64,000 bases of DNA from Paramacrobiotus metropolitanus. Taxonomy: Eukaryota > Tardigrada > Eutardigrada > Parachela > Macrobiotidae. The position numbers were made by a program, and so were the translations under genes. The stretch covers positions 124,001 through 188,000 of the forward strand of contig NW_026570225.1 of NCBI RefSeq assembly GCF_019649055.1, written 5' to 3'. Positions 19,999 through 51,419 of this stretch are shown one piece after another. Each line of letters opens with the position of its first letter. Position 1 is the first letter of the stretch. The notes beneath the pieces are model-generated. The model made no database searches and was not told the origin of the DNA. It saw only the letters and a list, made by a program, of their open reading frames with translations.

Positions 19999-20569
19999 TT
20001 ACACTTTGGCGTCCTTGTTCTTGGCGGCGCTTGATGGAACCAACGACATTCGGGTCTGTATGGCCGATCCGGACGCTAGAAGCGGTGTGCCGGGTTGAGC
20101 TGCAGTGATCACCCAAGGTCTCGTAAAGAAAAACCGCTGCGGATCAAAACGACCATCGATATTGCAAACCGCACGTTTAATTTACAGAACTATAGGGTAC
20201 TGCAATTTATTGACGACTGGTTACAGCGCAGTGACTTACTTTTACCGGTGCCTCCACCGGCTGCGTGATGGTCTGAACCGGCTCCGTGGAGAACGTGGCC
20301 ACTTCCGGATACAGGAAGTTTCCATTGTCCTCCATGACATAATCGGCATCGGCGTTGCGAATGGCCGCATCGGGTTGGCGGACACTCAGCAGGCGCATTC
20401 CGCCGGCCAATCCGGAGAAAGGTGACCAGGAGGTGAAGTATGGGTTGGAGTAGTCGAAGGCCCGTTTGCCCGGATGCCACAGCCGGCTGAACTGGAACTG
20501 CTGGGCGTTGACCATCGAGCATAGAATGGACAGAGCGATGAGGGCGCTGACTGGTGAGAATGCAGCCAT
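19999..20569 (-). CDS. Corazonin/GnRH-superfamily neuropeptide precursor
   Basis: The start ATG at 20569 opens a 22-residue signal peptide (hydrophobic core ALIALSILCSM, ending VNA). Directly after it comes QQFQFSRLWHPGKR: an N-terminal Gln able to cyclise, a Gly amide donor and a KR processing site. That layout (signal, peptide, GKR, long associated region) is standard for the GnRH/AKH/corazonin/ACP superfamily. The 11-mer aligns without gaps to arthropod corazonin (QTFQYSRGWTN) with six identities, while its end WHPG is like molluscan GnRH. Exon 1 is 20240-20569. A 103-base intron (20137-20239) joins it in phase to exon 2 (19999-20136), which ends AAKNKDAKV-stop. The junction creates a second KR before FFFTRPW. 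Expected action is on a rhodopsin-type corazonin/GnRH receptor, and expression is expected in neurosecretory cells. It converges with the VOPP1-like gene. Confidence 0.88.
20462..20503 (-). other. Mature corazonin/GnRH-like peptide with amidation and cleavage signal
   Basis: The segment encodes QQFQFSRLWHP, then Gly, Lys, Arg. If the signal peptide is cut after VNA, the product would be an 11-residue peptide with pyroglutamate at the front and a Pro-amide at the end. A cut one residue later would leave a 10-mer that still begins with Gln. This is inferred from family processing rules; no cleavage software was run. Confidence 0.8.
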
Positions 20570-22035: not shown

Positions 22036-24780
22036 CTATTTCCGGAATTTAAACAGTACATATACGAGGAGGCAAAACAGAAAGATAAACGCCAAGAGTT
22101 TCCATACGATTGAACCGTATCCTGCTCGCTGAATCTTTTTCAATCTGCTCATTGCTCCGCCTAAAAATCCACCGGCCGATTCGAAATCGGAGTCCTGCAA
22201 ACAGATGTCATACGTTATTCTTAAACATCACCCAGTAAACACAAAACAGATTTAAAGCAGAAAAATTTTTAATATAATATAGCGATAGTTCAGCAGATTA
22301 CCGCTCTCTGGAAAAAGCCGCAGTTCAGAAAATAATGCAATTCAAACTATCCTAATTCAGATCTATATTGCCACGAATGGGATACACCAGAGCCGGCAAA
22401 CCAGAAAAGACTGACCAAAACCATTATTATATTCTGAAAGCCAGTAGTCGAAAACCCGGCCAGACAGTATTCATTTCTTTCAAAACCTCAACCACTTCGA
22501 ACGCCAAAGCGGAAGAGTTTGGAATACCTTCACCAAGTGCAACTTAATTATTGAAATAATATTTATCATCGTGGTATTTTTCACCAGGCAATGTTGCCAC
22601 GTAAACCAACTAAAATAATATAGCTAAACCAATAAATGCGTAAACCAACTAAAACACAGTTATTTCTACTATTTAGATTAAATAGTAGAAATAACTTTCA
22701 TTTTTAAATGAATTTAATTAGCAGACCGTTATTACGACAAGAACGACTACATATGTAACGTCGTCATTGAGTGCCCGCCGACCAAATGGCCGAGCAGCCG
22801 GTACTGTCAAGCGTAAAAAGCACGTTAAGCAAACGAGCTACCCATAGCGGGTGAACAGCCCGTTAGGCGAGCGAGTGAGCAAGCTGCCGTAACTGTCCAG
22901 TACACGGGACCGTTTGGTGAGCGGGTGACCGAGCTACCGGCACTGTGCAGGGTACGGGGCCCGTTCGGTAAACGGGTGACCGAGCTACCGGTACTGTGCA
23001 GTGTACGGGGACCGTTAGGCGAGCGGGTGACCGAGCTACCGGTACTGTGCAGTGTACGTGGCCCGTTCGGTAAACGGGTGACCGAGCTACCGGCACTGTG
23101 CAGGGTACGGGGCCCGTTCGGTAAACGGGTGACCGAGCTACCGGTACTGTGCAGTTTACGGGCCCCGTTAGGCGAGCGGGTGACCGAGCTACCGGTACTG
23201 TGCAGTGTACGTGGCCCGTTCGGTAAACGGGTGACCGAGCTACCGGTACTGTGCAGTGTACGGGGACCGTTAGGCGAACGAGTGAGCAAGCTGCCGTTAC
23301 TGCCCAGTGTACGGGACTGCTAGGTGAACGGGTGACCAGGCTGCCGGTACTGTATAGTGCACAGAGCCCGGTAGGCGAGCTAGTGACCAAGCTTCCGGCC
23401 CCGTTAGGCGAGCGGTTGACCAAGCTACCGGTACTGTCCAGGGTACGGGACTGCTAGGTGAGCGGGTGACCAGTACTATCCAGTGTACGGGCCCATTAGG
23501 CAAACGAATGACCAAGCAACCGGTACTGTCCAGTGTGCGGGACCCGTTAGGTGAGCGGGTGACCGAGCAACCGGTATTGTCCAGCGCATATAGCCCGTTA
23601 TGCAAACGAGCTAGCAGGTGACTGAGCTACCGCTACTGTCCAGGGCACAGATCTAGCCAGGTGAAGGAGTGACCGAACTGCCGGTACTGTCTACTGTGCC
23701 GAGACGGTTAGGTGAACGGGGGACCAAACTGGCACTACTGTCCAGTGCACAGATCCCGCCAAATGAACGAGTGACCGAGCTCCCACTGCCCAGATTCATC
23801 AGGTTGAGGTCCACAGAATCATGAACTGAGTTGTGAGAATTTATAGTGATTTGAGAGAATCATGAACTGATAAAAAAAATTATATAAAAAAATTTCGTGT
23901 TTTTATATAAAATCCGTTTTTTTGCGCTAATACGATGTACCGATTATGTTTCTACGAAATGTGTTATTCTAATAAATATTCATTATAACTAAATAAAGTA
24001 GCCGTTGACCGCAAGAAACGCGGAGGCGAAGCCGAGGCTGTTTCTTGTATACATATAACGCAACAAACACTACCAAACAGGAATCGTAGAATAAGGTTTC
24101 TACGGAAGCAAGTTTTATTTGAATATGATATTTTTTAATCATTTTATTTTGCTATTTTGAGTTTCTATTCTGTAATTGTAGTTTAACTCTTGGCAAAACT
24201 GATTATCTATGGTCACTACGAAAAACAGAAAAGGAAATTAAACGCTGATCGGAACTGTAAAGAGGGAAAACCGCACCATTTCGTTCAGCATTCTATTCTG
24301 GCTCCGTATTTCGCTGCCAATATCGATGGCCACCTGCAAAAGAAAGTTCCCTGCACTAACTCAAGTCATCACTTCCAACGTGTCAACGCTACATCTGCAA
24401 GATCACTTGGAGCGAAAACACGTAACACAGTACGGAGAATTGATAAGATACCCATTATTCCAAGGGAAATATGGTCTACGGAAGCCCAATTATTTCCGAA
24501 ATGAATTGACTTGTTTTTCCATGTCATAAATGATAAATCCACTAAAAATAATGCACATTAACATACCGATTTTAAAGCGCTAATATGACCGCTGAGTTTC
24601 TCCGTCATTCGTTCATTTTCGTCTTCCAACATACTTCTACTCCTCACTCCATTCTGCGAGCTAGCCTCAGAACTAGGAACGCTAGAGTAATCTGTTGAAA
24701 CAGAGAGACATTAATGCGCATACAGTAGTAAAAACATATTTTAAATCAAAATACGTACTGTTTCTCGTCGAGCGCTGCAT
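22036..24780 (-). CDS. BET1: BET1 Golgi SNARE
   Basis: BET1 is a tail-anchored Qc-SNARE for ER-to-Golgi vesicle fusion. Four exons were assembled by splice phase. 24759-24780 encodes MQRSTRN. 24567-24691 encodes NYSSVPSSEASS...SMLEDENERMTEKLSGHISALKS. 24277-24333 encodes VAIDIGSEIRSQNRMLNEM. 22036-22194 encodes DSDFESAGGFLGGAMSRLKK, then the C-terminal hydrophobic anchor (LLAFIFLFCLLVYVLF) and a short basic end before TAG. The total is 120 residues; vertebrate BET1 is close to 118. The SNARE heptads (LSxHIxALKSxAIDIGxEIRxQNxML) are clear, including the central Gln of IRSQN. The third intron (22195-24276) is about 2.1 kb, unusually long for this window, and holds the minisatellite. The gene is divergent from EFTUD2 with about 440 bases between starts. 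Confidence 0.93.
22658..22696. repeat. Perfect inverted repeat, 18-bp arms, 3-nt loop
   Basis: Left arm 22658-22675 (agttatttctactattta) is followed by gat and its exact reverse complement at 22679-22696. It lies in BET1 intron 3, about 150 bases from the minisatellite. Confidence 0.95.
22845..23800. repeat. GC-rich minisatellite, unit about 51 bp, in BET1 intron 3
   Basis: About 18 copies of a 51-bp unit (core gtgaccgagctaccggtact) run head to tail. Copies between about 22920 and 23300 are nearly identical and fall into three types that differ at a few fixed positions. They are ordered A-B-C-A-B'-C-B, so there is a partial 153-bp higher-order period. Copies become more diverged toward both ends. 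The unit length is divisible by three, so long open frames of 130-190 codons run through it on both strands; these are an artefact. The block is GC-rich in an AT-rich setting. Confidence 0.93.
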
Positions 24781-28200: not shown

Positions 28201-30589
28201 TAAAAAGTCGTGACTACAATAATAAATAACGTTGATCAGCCGAATTCAAAATTTGTGTGGTTTGGATTCTGTACCGGCAAACAGTGTCCTGACTCAGGTG
28301 TGGTTCGACGTTGCTTTTTAGTTGATTATTCGAAATTGCGGTTAGGCGTTCGGTACAGCGCATAGTTAATGACCATATTATCGTTACCTACCTCTTCTAG
28401 CTTGGTTTTAGTGTTTTATTTTCCGTCCGTTGAGATTCAACGCAGCGTCCATTATAAAGATTGCATGTGAACCGGTAAATCCTTCGGAACTTCCGAAGAT
28501 GTTGGATGGTTTGCGGAAAGTGAATAAGAGCTATCCGCTTCTCAGCACGAAAGTAGAGGAAAGCGGCGAACATGTCGTCCTGGGCACCGGCGAGCTGTAT
28601 CTGGACTGCGTCATGCACGATCTCAGAAAAATGTATTCCGAAATTGGTGAGGCGTTTCCATATATTTCTGGCGATGTGACTGTTGAATGGGATTTTTTTT
28701 TACAGATATTAAAGTTGCAGACCCCGTCGTGACATTTTGTGAAACTGTTGTGGAGACGTCGTCGTTGAAGTGTTTTGCGGAAACTCCCAATAAGCGTAAT
28801 AAAATCACTATGGTTGCCGAGCCACTGGACAAAGGACTAGCGGATGATATCGAGACACAAGTGGTGTCCATTGGTTGGCCGGCGTGAGTGTAACGTTTAT
28901 GTTTGTGCACACTAGGCGTAAAAGGAAGAAGTATTAAATAGTGTCTATGTTTTTTCGTCTTGTAAGTTTTGTACAATGGTACAGCGATTTTTTCGGTTTT
29001 TACAGTTGTTGTTTAATTTTATCTGTTATTCAATCGTTTGTCCGTTGAAAGCGTTATGGATATGGTTTTCATGTATGGTTGCACGCTGGGGTAAATGGCA
29101 TATAATGCGTAAATTTTCTAGGAAACGACTGGGGGAATTTTTCCAGACCAAATACAACTGGGATCTTCTGGCTGCACGCAGTATTTGGGCTTTCGGTCCC
29201 GAAAATAATGGGCCGAATATTTTAGTGGATGACACTTTACCTTCCGAAGTGGACAAGACCATGCTCAGTGAAATCCGAGAAAGTGTAAAACAGGGCTTCC
29301 AGTGGGCTGCTCGAGAAGGGCCGCTGTGCGAAGAGCCGATTCGGAATGTCAAATTCAAAATTCTGGACGCAGTGGTGGCCCAGGAACCGATTGCGCGCGG
29401 TGGTGGGCAGATTATTCCTACCGCGCGGCGGGTGGCCTACTCGGCATTCCTTATGGCAACGCCGCGCTTAATGGAACCATATCTATATGTTGAAGCCATC
29501 GCTCCCGCCGACTGTGTATCTCCTTTATATACCGTTTTAGGACGAAGACGGTGAGCTGTTAATGTGTTGAGAATGTTAAAATGTATCCATAGAGCTTAAC
29601 CAGTTAGCTTTATAACAGAACAGTTAGTTGAAGTACTTACCATTACCGAAAAAATTGTGATAAAGTTCTATATGAAATCCATTCCATCTAAACGATAGCG
29701 GTCAAATGCAGTGTTCATGAATGGAAGATTCTGGTTTAGCTGGTAGTATGAAATGGCAGAGTTATTCTGAATGGAGAAAATTACAATTCAATTCAGAAAA
29801 CTAATTTAAATGGCCTTTAATTTTTGGAGTAGTGATCTTGACCACGGTACTGTTACATTTTGGTTCTTTGTCAGTGAAGTACTGTAGTTGAGGACTGTGG
29901 CAGCATTCTCCAGCACAAATTGCGCAATCAACGGTCGAATACGTTATCGTCTTTCTTTATCCCCTAGCGCAGTGTCTGTTTTGGCGCGTAATGAGATGTC
30001 CCATGTGGTCTAGTGGTTAGATGTGTCACTGCACACTGACTGTGATTCCGCGCTCTCACCGCGGCGGCCGGGGTTCGATTCCCCGCATGGGAAGTTTTTT
30101 TGCTTTTTTCCTCATTCTCTTATATCATGTGATGGGATTGTGAGATTTGGAAAGTTTTTATTAAACTCGCTCGTCCACATATATTGTATTCTCAATCAGC
30201 TTCTACGTTGGGTTAAGTCTGCAATTTGTAGAGGTCACGTGACATCCGATGCTCCACTGCCGGGTTCCCCGTTGTATACAATCAAGGCATTTATCCCGGC
30301 TATTGATTCCTTTGGCTTTGAAACGGATCTGAGAACCCACACCCAGGGCCAAGCGTTCTGTCAAAGTGTATTTCACCACTGGCAGATTGTTCCGGGTGAT
30401 CCCATGGACAAGAGTATCATCATCAAGCCCCTCGAACCACAACCGGCGCCGCATTTGGCACGGGAATTCATGCTAAAGACCCGTCGACGCAAGGGCCTGA
30501 GTGAGGATGTTAGTATCAATAAATTTTTCGATGATCCTATGTTACTGGAACTGGCCAAACAAGACTACGGTCTGAGTTATGCGCTATAA
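25220..30589 (+). CDS. EFTUD2: U5 snRNP GTPase EFTUD2 (Snu114)
   Basis: Snu114 is the EF-2-like GTPase of the U5 snRNP that controls Brr2 unwinding during spliceosome activation and disassembly. The start at 25220 gives the typical [17 protein letters not shown] and acidic N-terminal region. Next come [16 protein letters not shown] and [11 protein letters not shown]. The G domain follows: GHLHHGKT (P-loop, near 25980), RGVTIKS, DTPGH (near 26650) and NKID (near 26815). Domains II-V continue through [88 protein letters not shown] and the C-terminus DYGLSYAL. There are at least nine exons. The final intron, 29551-30231, contains the tRNA-Glu gene on the same strand. All GTPase motifs are intact. 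Confidence 0.96.
29999..30093 (+). tRNA. tRNA-Glu (CUC) with 23-nt insertion in the D arm
   Basis: Acceptor strands tcccatg/catggga, a T arm cggggttcgattccccg and an anticodon arm ccgcg-ctctcac-cgcgg (anticodon CTC) are all perfect. The A box (tggtctagtgg) and B box (ggttcgattcc) are intact, and a T7 run at 30095-30101 can end Pol III transcription. Removing 30021-30043 leaves a standard 72-nt animal tRNA-Glu with D arm gtct-agtggtta-ggat. With those bases the 3' strand of the D stem is split. Eukaryotic tRNA introns normally sit after position 37, not here. It may be a working gene with an unusual intron, or a damaged copy; the intact promoter, stems and terminator argue against old decay. 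It lies within the last EFTUD2 intron. Confidence 0.85.
30094..30101 (+). terminator. Pol III oligo-T terminator of tRNA-Glu
   Basis: A run of seven T residues begins one base after the tRNA 3' end, the standard Pol III stop signal. Confidence 0.8.
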
Positions 30590-47400: not shown

Positions 47401-50400
47401 CCCTGCCAGCGACGCATCAGTCATGGTAGGTGCTTTTTCTCCAAAAGCATGTATGTTTTATGTTTTGGAATTTCCAAGAATTTGCTGCTTGACAATATTA
47501 TAATATATTTCCTTTGCAGTTAATGCAATTTGGACAGTTTATTGTAAGTGTTCTCAAATTAAAGTAAGAGGCAAATCTATGCCGCTTGCTGCATTGGTTG
47601 CTTGCCGCTGATTTCATTCATATGAATGGTCCAATTCTTAAATCGCCTCTAACGGAATTCTTTCTTTTATGTGGTTTGTTACGCAAGGACCATGATGTGA
47701 CGGTGAGTGAAAGTGGCAGCTGCTGGGAAATTTTCATGGTCATCCAAAAATGATAGCGAAAACATTTGCCTACCAGCGTAGATTAAGCTAATTGGATTAT
47801 ACAATGACCGCGGTGTGGTTGATCATTTTATGCAGAATACACCGAAATCGCGTGGTGTCGATAAACTTCCGCCGCAGTGCTGTTTTGATAATGATCCCAA
47901 ACATGTCCTGGATCCGGCGTGCTTTCCAATTCTTATCCCAGCGGATGACAAATTTATGGCACCGTAAGTACAGATGTTTTGCACACACATTTATTAATAG
48001 TAATAACATTTACCTGTGAAAACTGACCAGCTACGAAACAGTACAGGTAACAAAAAAGAAGTGGTAAATCTAAAAAGCAAAAAGAAGTAGTAAACAAAAG
48101 TAGTAAACGTTTCGGCCAATTTCGGCCATATATCGATTGTGATTAATTCAGCAAGTTGAGCGTTTAACCACAAAACTTCAAAACTATTTTATTTTGTTGT
48201 ATAAGATGTTTTATTATATATAAATATGTGATAGATTTTTTTTAAAAATTTGATGTTTAATTTTAAACCAAAGTTCGATTTGAAAGCGCTTTATCAGCTT
48301 GTACCACAATAATTATCCAGAAATATGCATCGTAAAGGAGAGAATGCAATAAAAAAGCCTACTCGTAGTAAAGAAAGACATTTATTGGCGATATTTGCCG
48401 AATCGACTATAAACTTTCTTCTGCGGTCATGTCAGGCGAACAAAAACTAGACAACACCGTTTTAGATGAAACGAAGTTTGATTGCTATATTGTTTAAAAT
48501 TATTGTTTATTGTTTAAAATTATTGTTTGTTGTCAATAATATTTCGTCTTCGCATTGCATGAAAACACCATGTAAACTGTCTACCTTGAAGAAAAGAAAA
48601 CCTGAAGCTGGAATACTGAAAATTTAAAAACACGAAAGCAGTATCAATTTATTTTATGATAACACTTTGTACAATCATTACAGATTAAACCAAACTTGTA
48701 TGGAGTTTGTACGAAGCCTTCCCGGCACCCGCCCAGGATGCACATTGGGACCGCGGGAGCAGGTCAATCAAAACACGGCATTTATCGACGGAAGTGCTAG
48801 TAAGCCAACATTTAATTAATGTTTAACATTAATGTGTCAGTATGCTAACACACCCGATGATCAAACAAAGTATTTTTTAGGTTTTTAATCAGAAATCTAA
48901 TAGTTTTCAACGTAATTTAAAGTGGATTGTTTTCTATCTGCACGTACAAATATTATAGATGCTGTATCAATGGCGCTTTGCTAGCTTTTTGGTATCGATG
49001 AACAATATATTTTTTTGTGATAATAATTGTACATGTTTGATATGCGCCGAAGATCCGGTTGTGCTGTTTAGGTTGGATAGTTACGCATTTTTAATAACTC
49101 TAACATTCTTTTCTGCTCGTTCGACAGTTTACGGTGGCTCGCAAGACAAAGCCGATTTCCTCCGTACAATGAGCGATGGTGCGTGCAGACGCGTGTTTAA
49201 TGCGCCAGTTTTGTCGGGCATCTATCTCCGTGTTAAAGCAGACGCGGTAACCTTTGCTGACATATTGCAGGTTTGATGAAGACGTTCGCACCAAAGAACG
49301 ATCCTCATTACGATCTCTTACCACAGAACGCCAAAAATTCCGAATGTATTGACCCGAGTGACACTAAAATGTGCTTCAGAGCCGGTAAGTGGTTGTTGCG
49401 TTTCTCAATTATGTAACAAATGATATCAAACACCCATTTTTCTTTGACCATGAAATAATATAATTATATTTTGTAGGCGATGTCCGAGTGAATGTCCACG
49501 TACGTGCAACAACGATTTTCGTTTACAGTGTGCAATTTATGCAGCTGACTGGGCATTATTGTGGTTGTGTGGTTGCAGTTGGGAATTGCAGAAATCCAGA
49601 CTTTATGGGTACGACAACATAATTTGGTTGCCAGTAATCTGAAGGAAATCAATGCCCATTGGGATGATGACAAATTGTTCCAAGAAACTCGACACATTGT
49701 GGTCGCGCAACTACAACACATCACGTACAATGTATGTTTGTCGGCATACATCACAGTTAGGCAAGAGTACAGAGTGCTCTGTACATTACTTGTTACAATC
49801 GTTGGAAAATTAGTCTTATTCTTTTTAACATGCGCTAACCGAAGTCATATCGCTACTGCGCGTTTGGGGATAATCCTGTGTATCCAATAGTTGAATATTC
49901 TATTACATCGAATAAAATAAATCTAAACAAAAACTGCTTGTGCTTTCACCGTTATTTATATCTTACAGGAATACCTACCGGTTCTGTTAGGCGGACAGAT
50001 TCTGGATAAATGGAAATTGAGGGTTTTGGACAATGGACGCTCCAGTGGATACGATATCACTGTTCATCCCGGTAAGAACAATACTACCTTGATTACGACT
50101 GTACGAATAGGTACGATTCCGCCTTAATTTTCGCATGACACTTTCGCTAAACACATCTCGAAATAAGTAAGTGCCTTTTGCGCAAGCAACAAAATCATCG
50201 AATGTAAAAAAGAAATAACGAACTGCACGGATCGGCGCTGTTACACGCAGCTATAGTTTGGGTCCCTTGGGAAAATGCAAGCATACCCTCAATTTCGCAA
50301 ATACTCGGCACTTGCATTGTCACATGTTTCCAACGACATTCTTGTAAATTCAGGAATTCTGAACGAATTCGCCACGGCAGCCTATCGTTTCGGACACACG

Positions 50401-51419
50401 ATGGTGCCCAATGAGTTCCGGCGCGCTTCGGCCAAATACCAGTTCCGCGGTAATGAGCGGCTCAAATCCACATTCTTCCATCCGTTCGCCCTGTACGACA
50501 AGGACGCCTTCGACGAGATCATCTTGGGCATGGTGTCGTCGCCCGCCCAGGAGGTGGATTCTAATTTTGTCGACGACCTGACAAACCATTTATTCGAGAT
50601 CCCCGGCGACGCTTTTGGACTGGATCTTACGGCGCTGAATATCCAACGCGGTCGTGATCACGGCCTCGCCGGGTGGATGCGCTGGCGACAGTTGTGCGGA
50701 CTTCCCACAGCCAGCACTTTCGATGAGCTGAAAGCCATGCAGATTATGGATGCGGCGTTTGTTGACCGGATGTCCGATGCTTATGAGTATGAGAGACCTT
50801 ACAAGAATTTGCTTTCTAATGTATGTTTGCAAGTAGTTTATAAGGATTTTTATGGCAGTGACCTGGCGGATGTTGATTTGTATCTAGCCGGTTCCGCGGA
50901 AAATCATGTACCCGGAGGAAAAGTGGGACCGACATTTGCCTGTATAATTGCTGATCAATTCAGGCGATTGAAGTTTGGTGATCGATTTTGGTATGAGAAT
51001 GACCTTCCACTTTCCTCATCATTATCAGACCGTAAGTGCAATTATTTTCGTAAAATTATTATAACATCATTAAAAACGGCGTAACAAACCAGAATTCGAT
51101 AAAGTAGAAAATAAATAACGAGGTAAGCATTTTTCAGGCCAAGTGCAAGCAATACGCGGCATCACAATGTCCCGCATTTTGTGCGACAACACGCCTCTTA
51201 TGGAAGCTATACAGCCCAAACCGTTATTGCTAGCCTCTGCGTAAGAACAATTAACCTATAATGTTTCGAAACGAGATAAACAATTTTGATTAATTATAAT
51301 ATTTTTTGTTATTATTTCCATAATTGTATGTACGTATTTGCAGGAGTAATCCCGTCACATCTTGCGACTCCATACCGCAGTTTGATTATAAACCTTGGAA
51401 AGTGCGGAGAAAAGGATAA
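44485..51419 (+). CDS. Secreted animal haem peroxidase (peroxinectin/peroxidasin-like)
   Basis: Animal haem peroxidases use H2O2 to oxidise halides, tyrosines or matrix proteins. The start is ATG 44485 (MDLLR). An intron to 44599 joins it in phase to LGLLLCTYAFLNLLAFTLSQ, completing a signal peptide. A long non-catalytic region follows with a KKKKK then poly-Thr tract (45118-45175). The catalytic domain starts near 46860 (FSGNLPDCARTKYRSFDGTC). It contains SIGAPRKSKRGLTLPSARLI, LMQFGQFI-DHDVT (distal His), NQNTAFIDGSAIYGG, LGIAEIQTLWVRQHN (catalytic Arg region), EYLPVLLGG, EFATAAYRFGHTMVPNEF (proximal His, near 50370), GLDLTALNIQRGRDHGL and GPTFACIIADQFRRLKFGDR, ending KVRRKG. No Ig, LRR or membrane segments are seen. 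AATAAA lies at 51604. All key residues are present. Confidence 0.93.

Follow-up and report, generated by a model that had tools for sequence, protein, structure and literature searches.

A small gene in the tardigrade Paramacrobiotus metropolitanus, lying within the 64,000-nucleotide stretch of DNA analysed here (the window), encodes a peptide with a corazonin-like body and a GnRH-like end. Is this peptide an intermediate between the two kinds, as the first-pass annotation proposed, or a member of one of them? We read the window gene as a corazonin-type neuropeptide precursor, one of at least three tardigrade paralogs, with a probability of roughly 0.85. The most probable origin of the gene is a duplication followed by divergence, and not a position as missing link to GnRH.

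Direct translation of the minus strand places the ATG at 20569, and the gene is laid out as follows.

20504-20569, minus strand: putative signal peptide, MAAFSPVSALIALSILCSMVNA, from translation, hydropathy and V and A at positions -3 and -1
20471-20503, minus strand: peptide QQFQFSRLWHP, from translation; predicted mature form pQQFQFSRLWHP-amide, as suggested by the GKR site
20462-20470, minus strand: GKR, the amide donor Gly plus a dibasic cleavage site, from translation
20240-20461, minus strand: remainder of coding exon 1, the precursor tail, from the open frame and a donor scan
19999-20136, minus strand: predicted exon 2, phase 0, RFFFTRPWVIT...KDAKV-stop, from splice prediction

The open frame, the peptide and its processing sites are observed, and the earlier placement of QQFQFSRLWHP-GKR right behind a signal peptide proved exact in its coordinates, on the minus strand, with the signal judged by hydropathy. 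The signal-like stretch has 22 residues, ends in V-N-A and reaches a mean Kyte-Doolittle value of 2.66 over its most hydrophobic 10 residues. Coding exon 1 is closed by a GTAAGT donor at 20239 (donor scan). Exon 2 is one among several splice solutions, picked for the GTAAGT donor and the intact phase, and together the two exons give a predicted precursor of 155 residues.

The window gene has the layout of a corazonin-type precursor: one N-terminal peptide after a signal-like stretch, Gln-1, an amidation Gly and a dibasic site. Length and core agree as well, QQFQFSRLWHP having 11 residues (11-12 expected) and the core F-x-[FY]-S-x-x-W. With arthropod corazonin (pQTFQYSRGWTN-amide; available text of PMC5592718) it has in common Gln-1, the 11 residues, F-Q-[FY]-S-R-x-W, the adjacent signal and the amidation site, whereas it differs in Gln-2, Phe-5, Leu-8 and a His-Pro end that replaces Thr-Asn. 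The residues Q, F, Q, S, R and W, listed in the first-pass annotation as common with corazonin, were confirmed, 6 of 11 positions being identical to QTFQYSRGWTN.

The same count of 6/11 was obtained against octopus GnRH and against leech GnRH, and five other molluscan or annelid "GnRH" peptides gave 4 or 5 of 11. According to the parts of PMC5592718 at hand, these peptides (octopus pQNYHFSNGWHPG-amide, leech pQSIHFSRSWQP-amide) resemble the window peptide in having 11-12 residues and an aromatic-S-x-x-W core; unlike it, they carry His-4, and their position 7 is mostly Asn, with His in Capitella and Arg in leech. Octopus GnRH ends in Gly-amide, the window peptide, as predicted, in Pro-amide. 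The first-pass annotation likened the WHPG ending to that of molluscan GnRHs. In the sequences given in those parts of PMC5592718, W-x-P occurs in octopus, oyster and scallop, and also in Capitella and leech, but it is absent from sea hare (WYA) and limpet (WKS), and the ending recurs in the tardigrade paralogs described next.

The whole genome (169.8 Mb, 533 contigs) was searched with degenerate DNA patterns, reversed patterns serving as controls, and genes were accepted when a signal stretch, the motif and a dibasic site occurred together. Two further precursors of the same build as the window gene were found by pattern searches and translation, on contigs labelled C25 and C227.

C25:422556, minus strand: corazonin-type precursor (L026), ...SASA-QQFQFSRQWRP-GKR
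C227:26078-26350, plus strand: corazonin-type precursor (L043), MDAGMWL...CVPA-QKFQYSRGWMPG-GKR-...MHDE-stop

All three precursors have a Q-x start, an adjacent signal-like stretch and then GKR or GGKR, and all three share the WxPG ending. Three is a minimum for the corazonin-type genes, as the patterns may miss diverged or split copies. The window peptide is identical to the C25 peptide at 9 of 11 positions and to the C227 peptide at 7 of 11. The first-pass annotation had placed the window gene in the corazonin/GnRH superfamily of neuropeptide precursors, a placement that is supported; the signal-Q...W..GKR layout and the two like-built paralogs favour the corazonin-type reading.

Many of the raw pattern hits are noise, because the reversed controls yielded 15 places against 30, 6 against 10, 9 against 17 and 3 against 6. 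The pattern FQ[FY][ST]xxWxxG gave the 10 places against 6; SRxWxPG was present in only three of the 10, and because these three share the Q-x start, the signal-like stretch and GKR/GGKR, the window motif is beyond chance. From the same pattern, L044 (FQFSRVWQWG) was rejected for want of Gln-1 and of a nearby start, and L045 and L046 were fetched and rejected as precursors. Another pattern gave the 30 places, the window gene among them. Among the 17 of these that were examined, two were neuropeptide precursors (L026 and L029, the latter AKH-type); the other 15 had, by eye, no signal stretch directly ahead of the motif. The 17 places of a third pattern comprised three precursors already known, four places with an in-frame stop, and two (L049, L050) that were fetched and rejected; eight of the 17 resemble one repeat family, Q[CS][FY]xFSFLW. 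The pattern that found the RPCH-like genes gave the remaining six places, two of which are those genes (L041, L042).

The C227 gene bears most directly on the question. A separate canonical corazonin gene in the same genome had been named, jointly with a receptor tree that puts the window peptide elsewhere, as what would speak against an intermediate, and for the first of these two the genome does contain a more canonical corazonin-type gene: QKFQYSRGWMPG is identical to arthropod corazonin at 8 of 11 positions and to scallop GnRH at 7 of 11. If the window peptide were evolutionarily intermediate between corazonin and GnRH, it would inform the split of both systems, and its WHP(G) end, like that of octopus GnRH, and its equal 6/11 with octopus GnRH and arthropod corazonin would fit; however, the genome holds both this more canonical gene, nearer to arthropod corazonin, and, on C25, a paralog close to the window gene, and the duplication that separated GnRH from corazonin is placed before the protostome-deuterostome split in the accessible text of PMC4923880, far before tardigrades. 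An intermediate is unsupported because WxPG is common to the three paralogs and because W-x-P "GnRHs" have themselves been proposed as corazonin-type, and we regard it as highly improbable.

The corazonin-type reading can also account for the likeness to molluscan "GnRH", as a likeness within the corazonin kind. In the portions available to us, PMC10730642 notes that the octopus-type peptide has been proposed as a corazonin and refers to corazonin-like sequences, untagged or hypothetical, in Tardigrada, PMC8557429 describes the annotation of trochozoan GnRH/corazonin precursors as once confused and later clarified, and PMC5592718 reports that a sea-hare GnRH receptor clusters with several corazonin receptors of insects as well as with that for octopus GnRH. 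Retention of an old W-x-P ending, whose age we infer, is a better reading than "intermediate". Assignment of such peptides is described as hard to decide in the available part of PMC5024129, and the accessible text of PMC4923880 states that neither the peptides nor their precursors offer a trait by which, in Bilateria as a whole, corazonin-type can be told from GnRH/AKH-type.

Comparison of the window precursor with the C25 precursor bears on whether the window gene is a decaying or unexpressed duplicate. The tail behind GKR has no Pfam match, as such a duplicate might show, but start, signal stretch, peptide and GKR are all intact, and the C25 gene retains this peptide core although, outside it, the two precursors seem unrelated (by eye, no alignment). 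A core kept amid an unrelated remainder suggests selection on the peptide, and we consider a decaying or unexpressed duplicate very unlikely.

Profile scores leave more room for an AKH/ACP-type (GnRH-clade) peptide that converged on corazonin. The window gene scored 14.7 bits with the AKH model (PF06377, cut-off 22.9) and 13.2 with the corazonin model (PF17308, cut-off 25); the C25 gene scored 16.0 and 12.6, so that two of the three corazonin-type precursors score slightly better with the AKH model. The C227 gene had a single Pfam match, pro-corazonin (19.3 bits, E 0.0016, cut-off 25). None of the three corazonin-type precursors passes a Pfam cut-off, the curated cut-offs being detection thresholds and not defining traits. 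A genome search with PF17308 matched the C227 gene alone, below cut-off at 17.5 bits, and missed the window gene.

Against this small lead of the AKH model stand the peptide itself and the plainly corazonin-like C227 paralog. The hallmarks of AKH given in the available part of PMC5024129 are 8-10 residues, FS, FT or YS at positions 4-5 and W at 8; QQFQFSRLWHP is longer, with 11 residues, and has QF in the 4-5 slot and its W one place later, at 9. The genome also contains three AKH/RPCH-type genes separate from the corazonin-type set, one with QLSFSTGWGH and two with QFNFSPNW.

C227:28941-28624, minus strand: AKH-type gene (L029), QLSFSTGWGH-GKR, from the pattern search
L041 and L042: RPCH-like genes, QFNFSPNW-GKR, from the pattern search

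Their peptides belong to the same superfamily and follow the same precursor plan as the window gene, but unlike the window peptide they have 8-10 residues, FS at 4-5 and W at 8. In a scan that covered L029 and L042, both passed the AKH cut-off of 22.9 (24.8 and 29.1 bits). The corazonin-type L043 and the AKH-type L029 lie tail-to-tail on C227, about 2.3 kb apart. Conserved synteny of GnRH/AKH and corazonin regions is discussed in PMC10321317, in the part available.

Receptor genes were sought with the human GnRH receptor as the query, which gave 60 matches in the genome; sequence was read at the 20 best loci (L001-L020). By BLAST, seven of these best 20 loci (L001-L006, L009) are nearest the Drosophila corazonin receptor, nine the Drosophila AKH receptor and four (L008, L017, L018, L020) a vertebrate GnRH receptor, both Drosophila references being unverified sequences. 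That nine loci are nearest the AKH receptor, and thus outnumber the three AKH/RPCH-type ligands, makes a further ligand possible; given the peptide features above, we nonetheless consider it very improbable that the window peptide is of AKH/ACP type.

A first receptor tree had weak deep forks (65/40). A second tree dropped five of the 20 loci: L009, L010, L013 and L016, which are long-branched or doubtful, and L020, which is short. In this tree the Drosophila reference for the corazonin receptor was joined by L001-L006 (support 79/82); forcing these six together with the AKH receptor reference was rejected (p-AU 0.0005). Among the other loci, L011 alone joined the AKH receptor at a well-supported node (95/95), and the remaining AKH-receptor-like loci were not united with it in the second tree. 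The receptor labels depend on two unverified Drosophila sequences that were supplied once the tardigrade receptors had been seen, and the group received its name in view of the first tree; when these two reference rows are left out, L001-L006 still group (84/84), and the group is then nameless. Their grouping is therefore no more than supporting evidence for the corazonin-type reading.

In L001-L005 the second extracellular loop contains the motif CVT-x-GAY. Literature searches with the receptor motifs returned no match. Receptors outnumber ligands, with six or seven corazonin-receptor-like loci and nine nearest the AKH receptor among the best 20. On C25 the corazonin-type gene L026 lies about 13 kb from the corazonin-receptor-like gene L003 (C25:435896-437013), and in the 10 kb of the interval that was read (L052) there are several open frames of unrelated kind.

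For the window peptide we infer processing, release, choice of receptor and function along the following lines. The precursor would enter the secretory pathway, where the signal peptide would be cut before Gln-1 and Gln-1 would cyclise to pyroglutamate. A prohormone convertase would cut at GKR, the basic residues would be trimmed, and the Gly would amidate Pro-11. The resulting 11-mer would be released from neurons and may act on at least one rhodopsin-type receptor from the corazonin receptor group, whose members in this genome seem to number about six.

A broader scenario, possible but doubtful, is that an ancestral protostome W-x-P(G)-amide ending was kept in tardigrades while arthropods changed it to W-T-N-amide, that the tardigrade system expanded to three or more ligands and some six receptors dividing its functions among them, and that the corazonin-AKH linkage is possibly a trace of the old tandem duplication behind the two systems. 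Several corazonin-type ligands together with candidate receptors, all from one non-arthropod panarthropod genome, bear on the form of the ancestral protostome corazonin. What is of interest here, to a modest degree, is the W-x-P ending, the enlarged set of receptors and the close linkage of a corazonin-type with an AKH-type gene; the accepted view of the GnRH/corazonin split is not overturned.

Duplicated tardigrade precursors, corazonin and GnRH among them, were reportedly described by Koziol in 2018. The corazonin paralogs of that study come from the same phylum, and orthologs of the window gene may well be among them. Searches of the literature within reach found no match to the peptide strings, and novelty of the peptide is hence not claimed.

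Other features were seen along the way. CAHS proteins are a family of tardigrade heat-soluble proteins, and a tardigrade CAHS query gave 20 matches in the genome, including L047 and L048, the top one having E 1.8e-74 and 68% identity across 188 residues. These matches agree with a tardigrade, probably eutardigrade, origin; a COX1 search gave no match, and a lipocalin search gave three uninformative ones, among them an ordinary fatty-acid-binding protein. In the window, positions 22858-23584 hold a 51-base tandem repeat, with 10.6 copies (82% matches) followed by 3.8 more (69% matches); several of its frames are open. A heme peroxidase exon, lacto/myeloperoxidase-like, occupies 50257-51084. A tRNA gene at 29999-30093 lies at the start of the open frame 30014-30589, which further on resembles the end of what we take to be EFTUD2.
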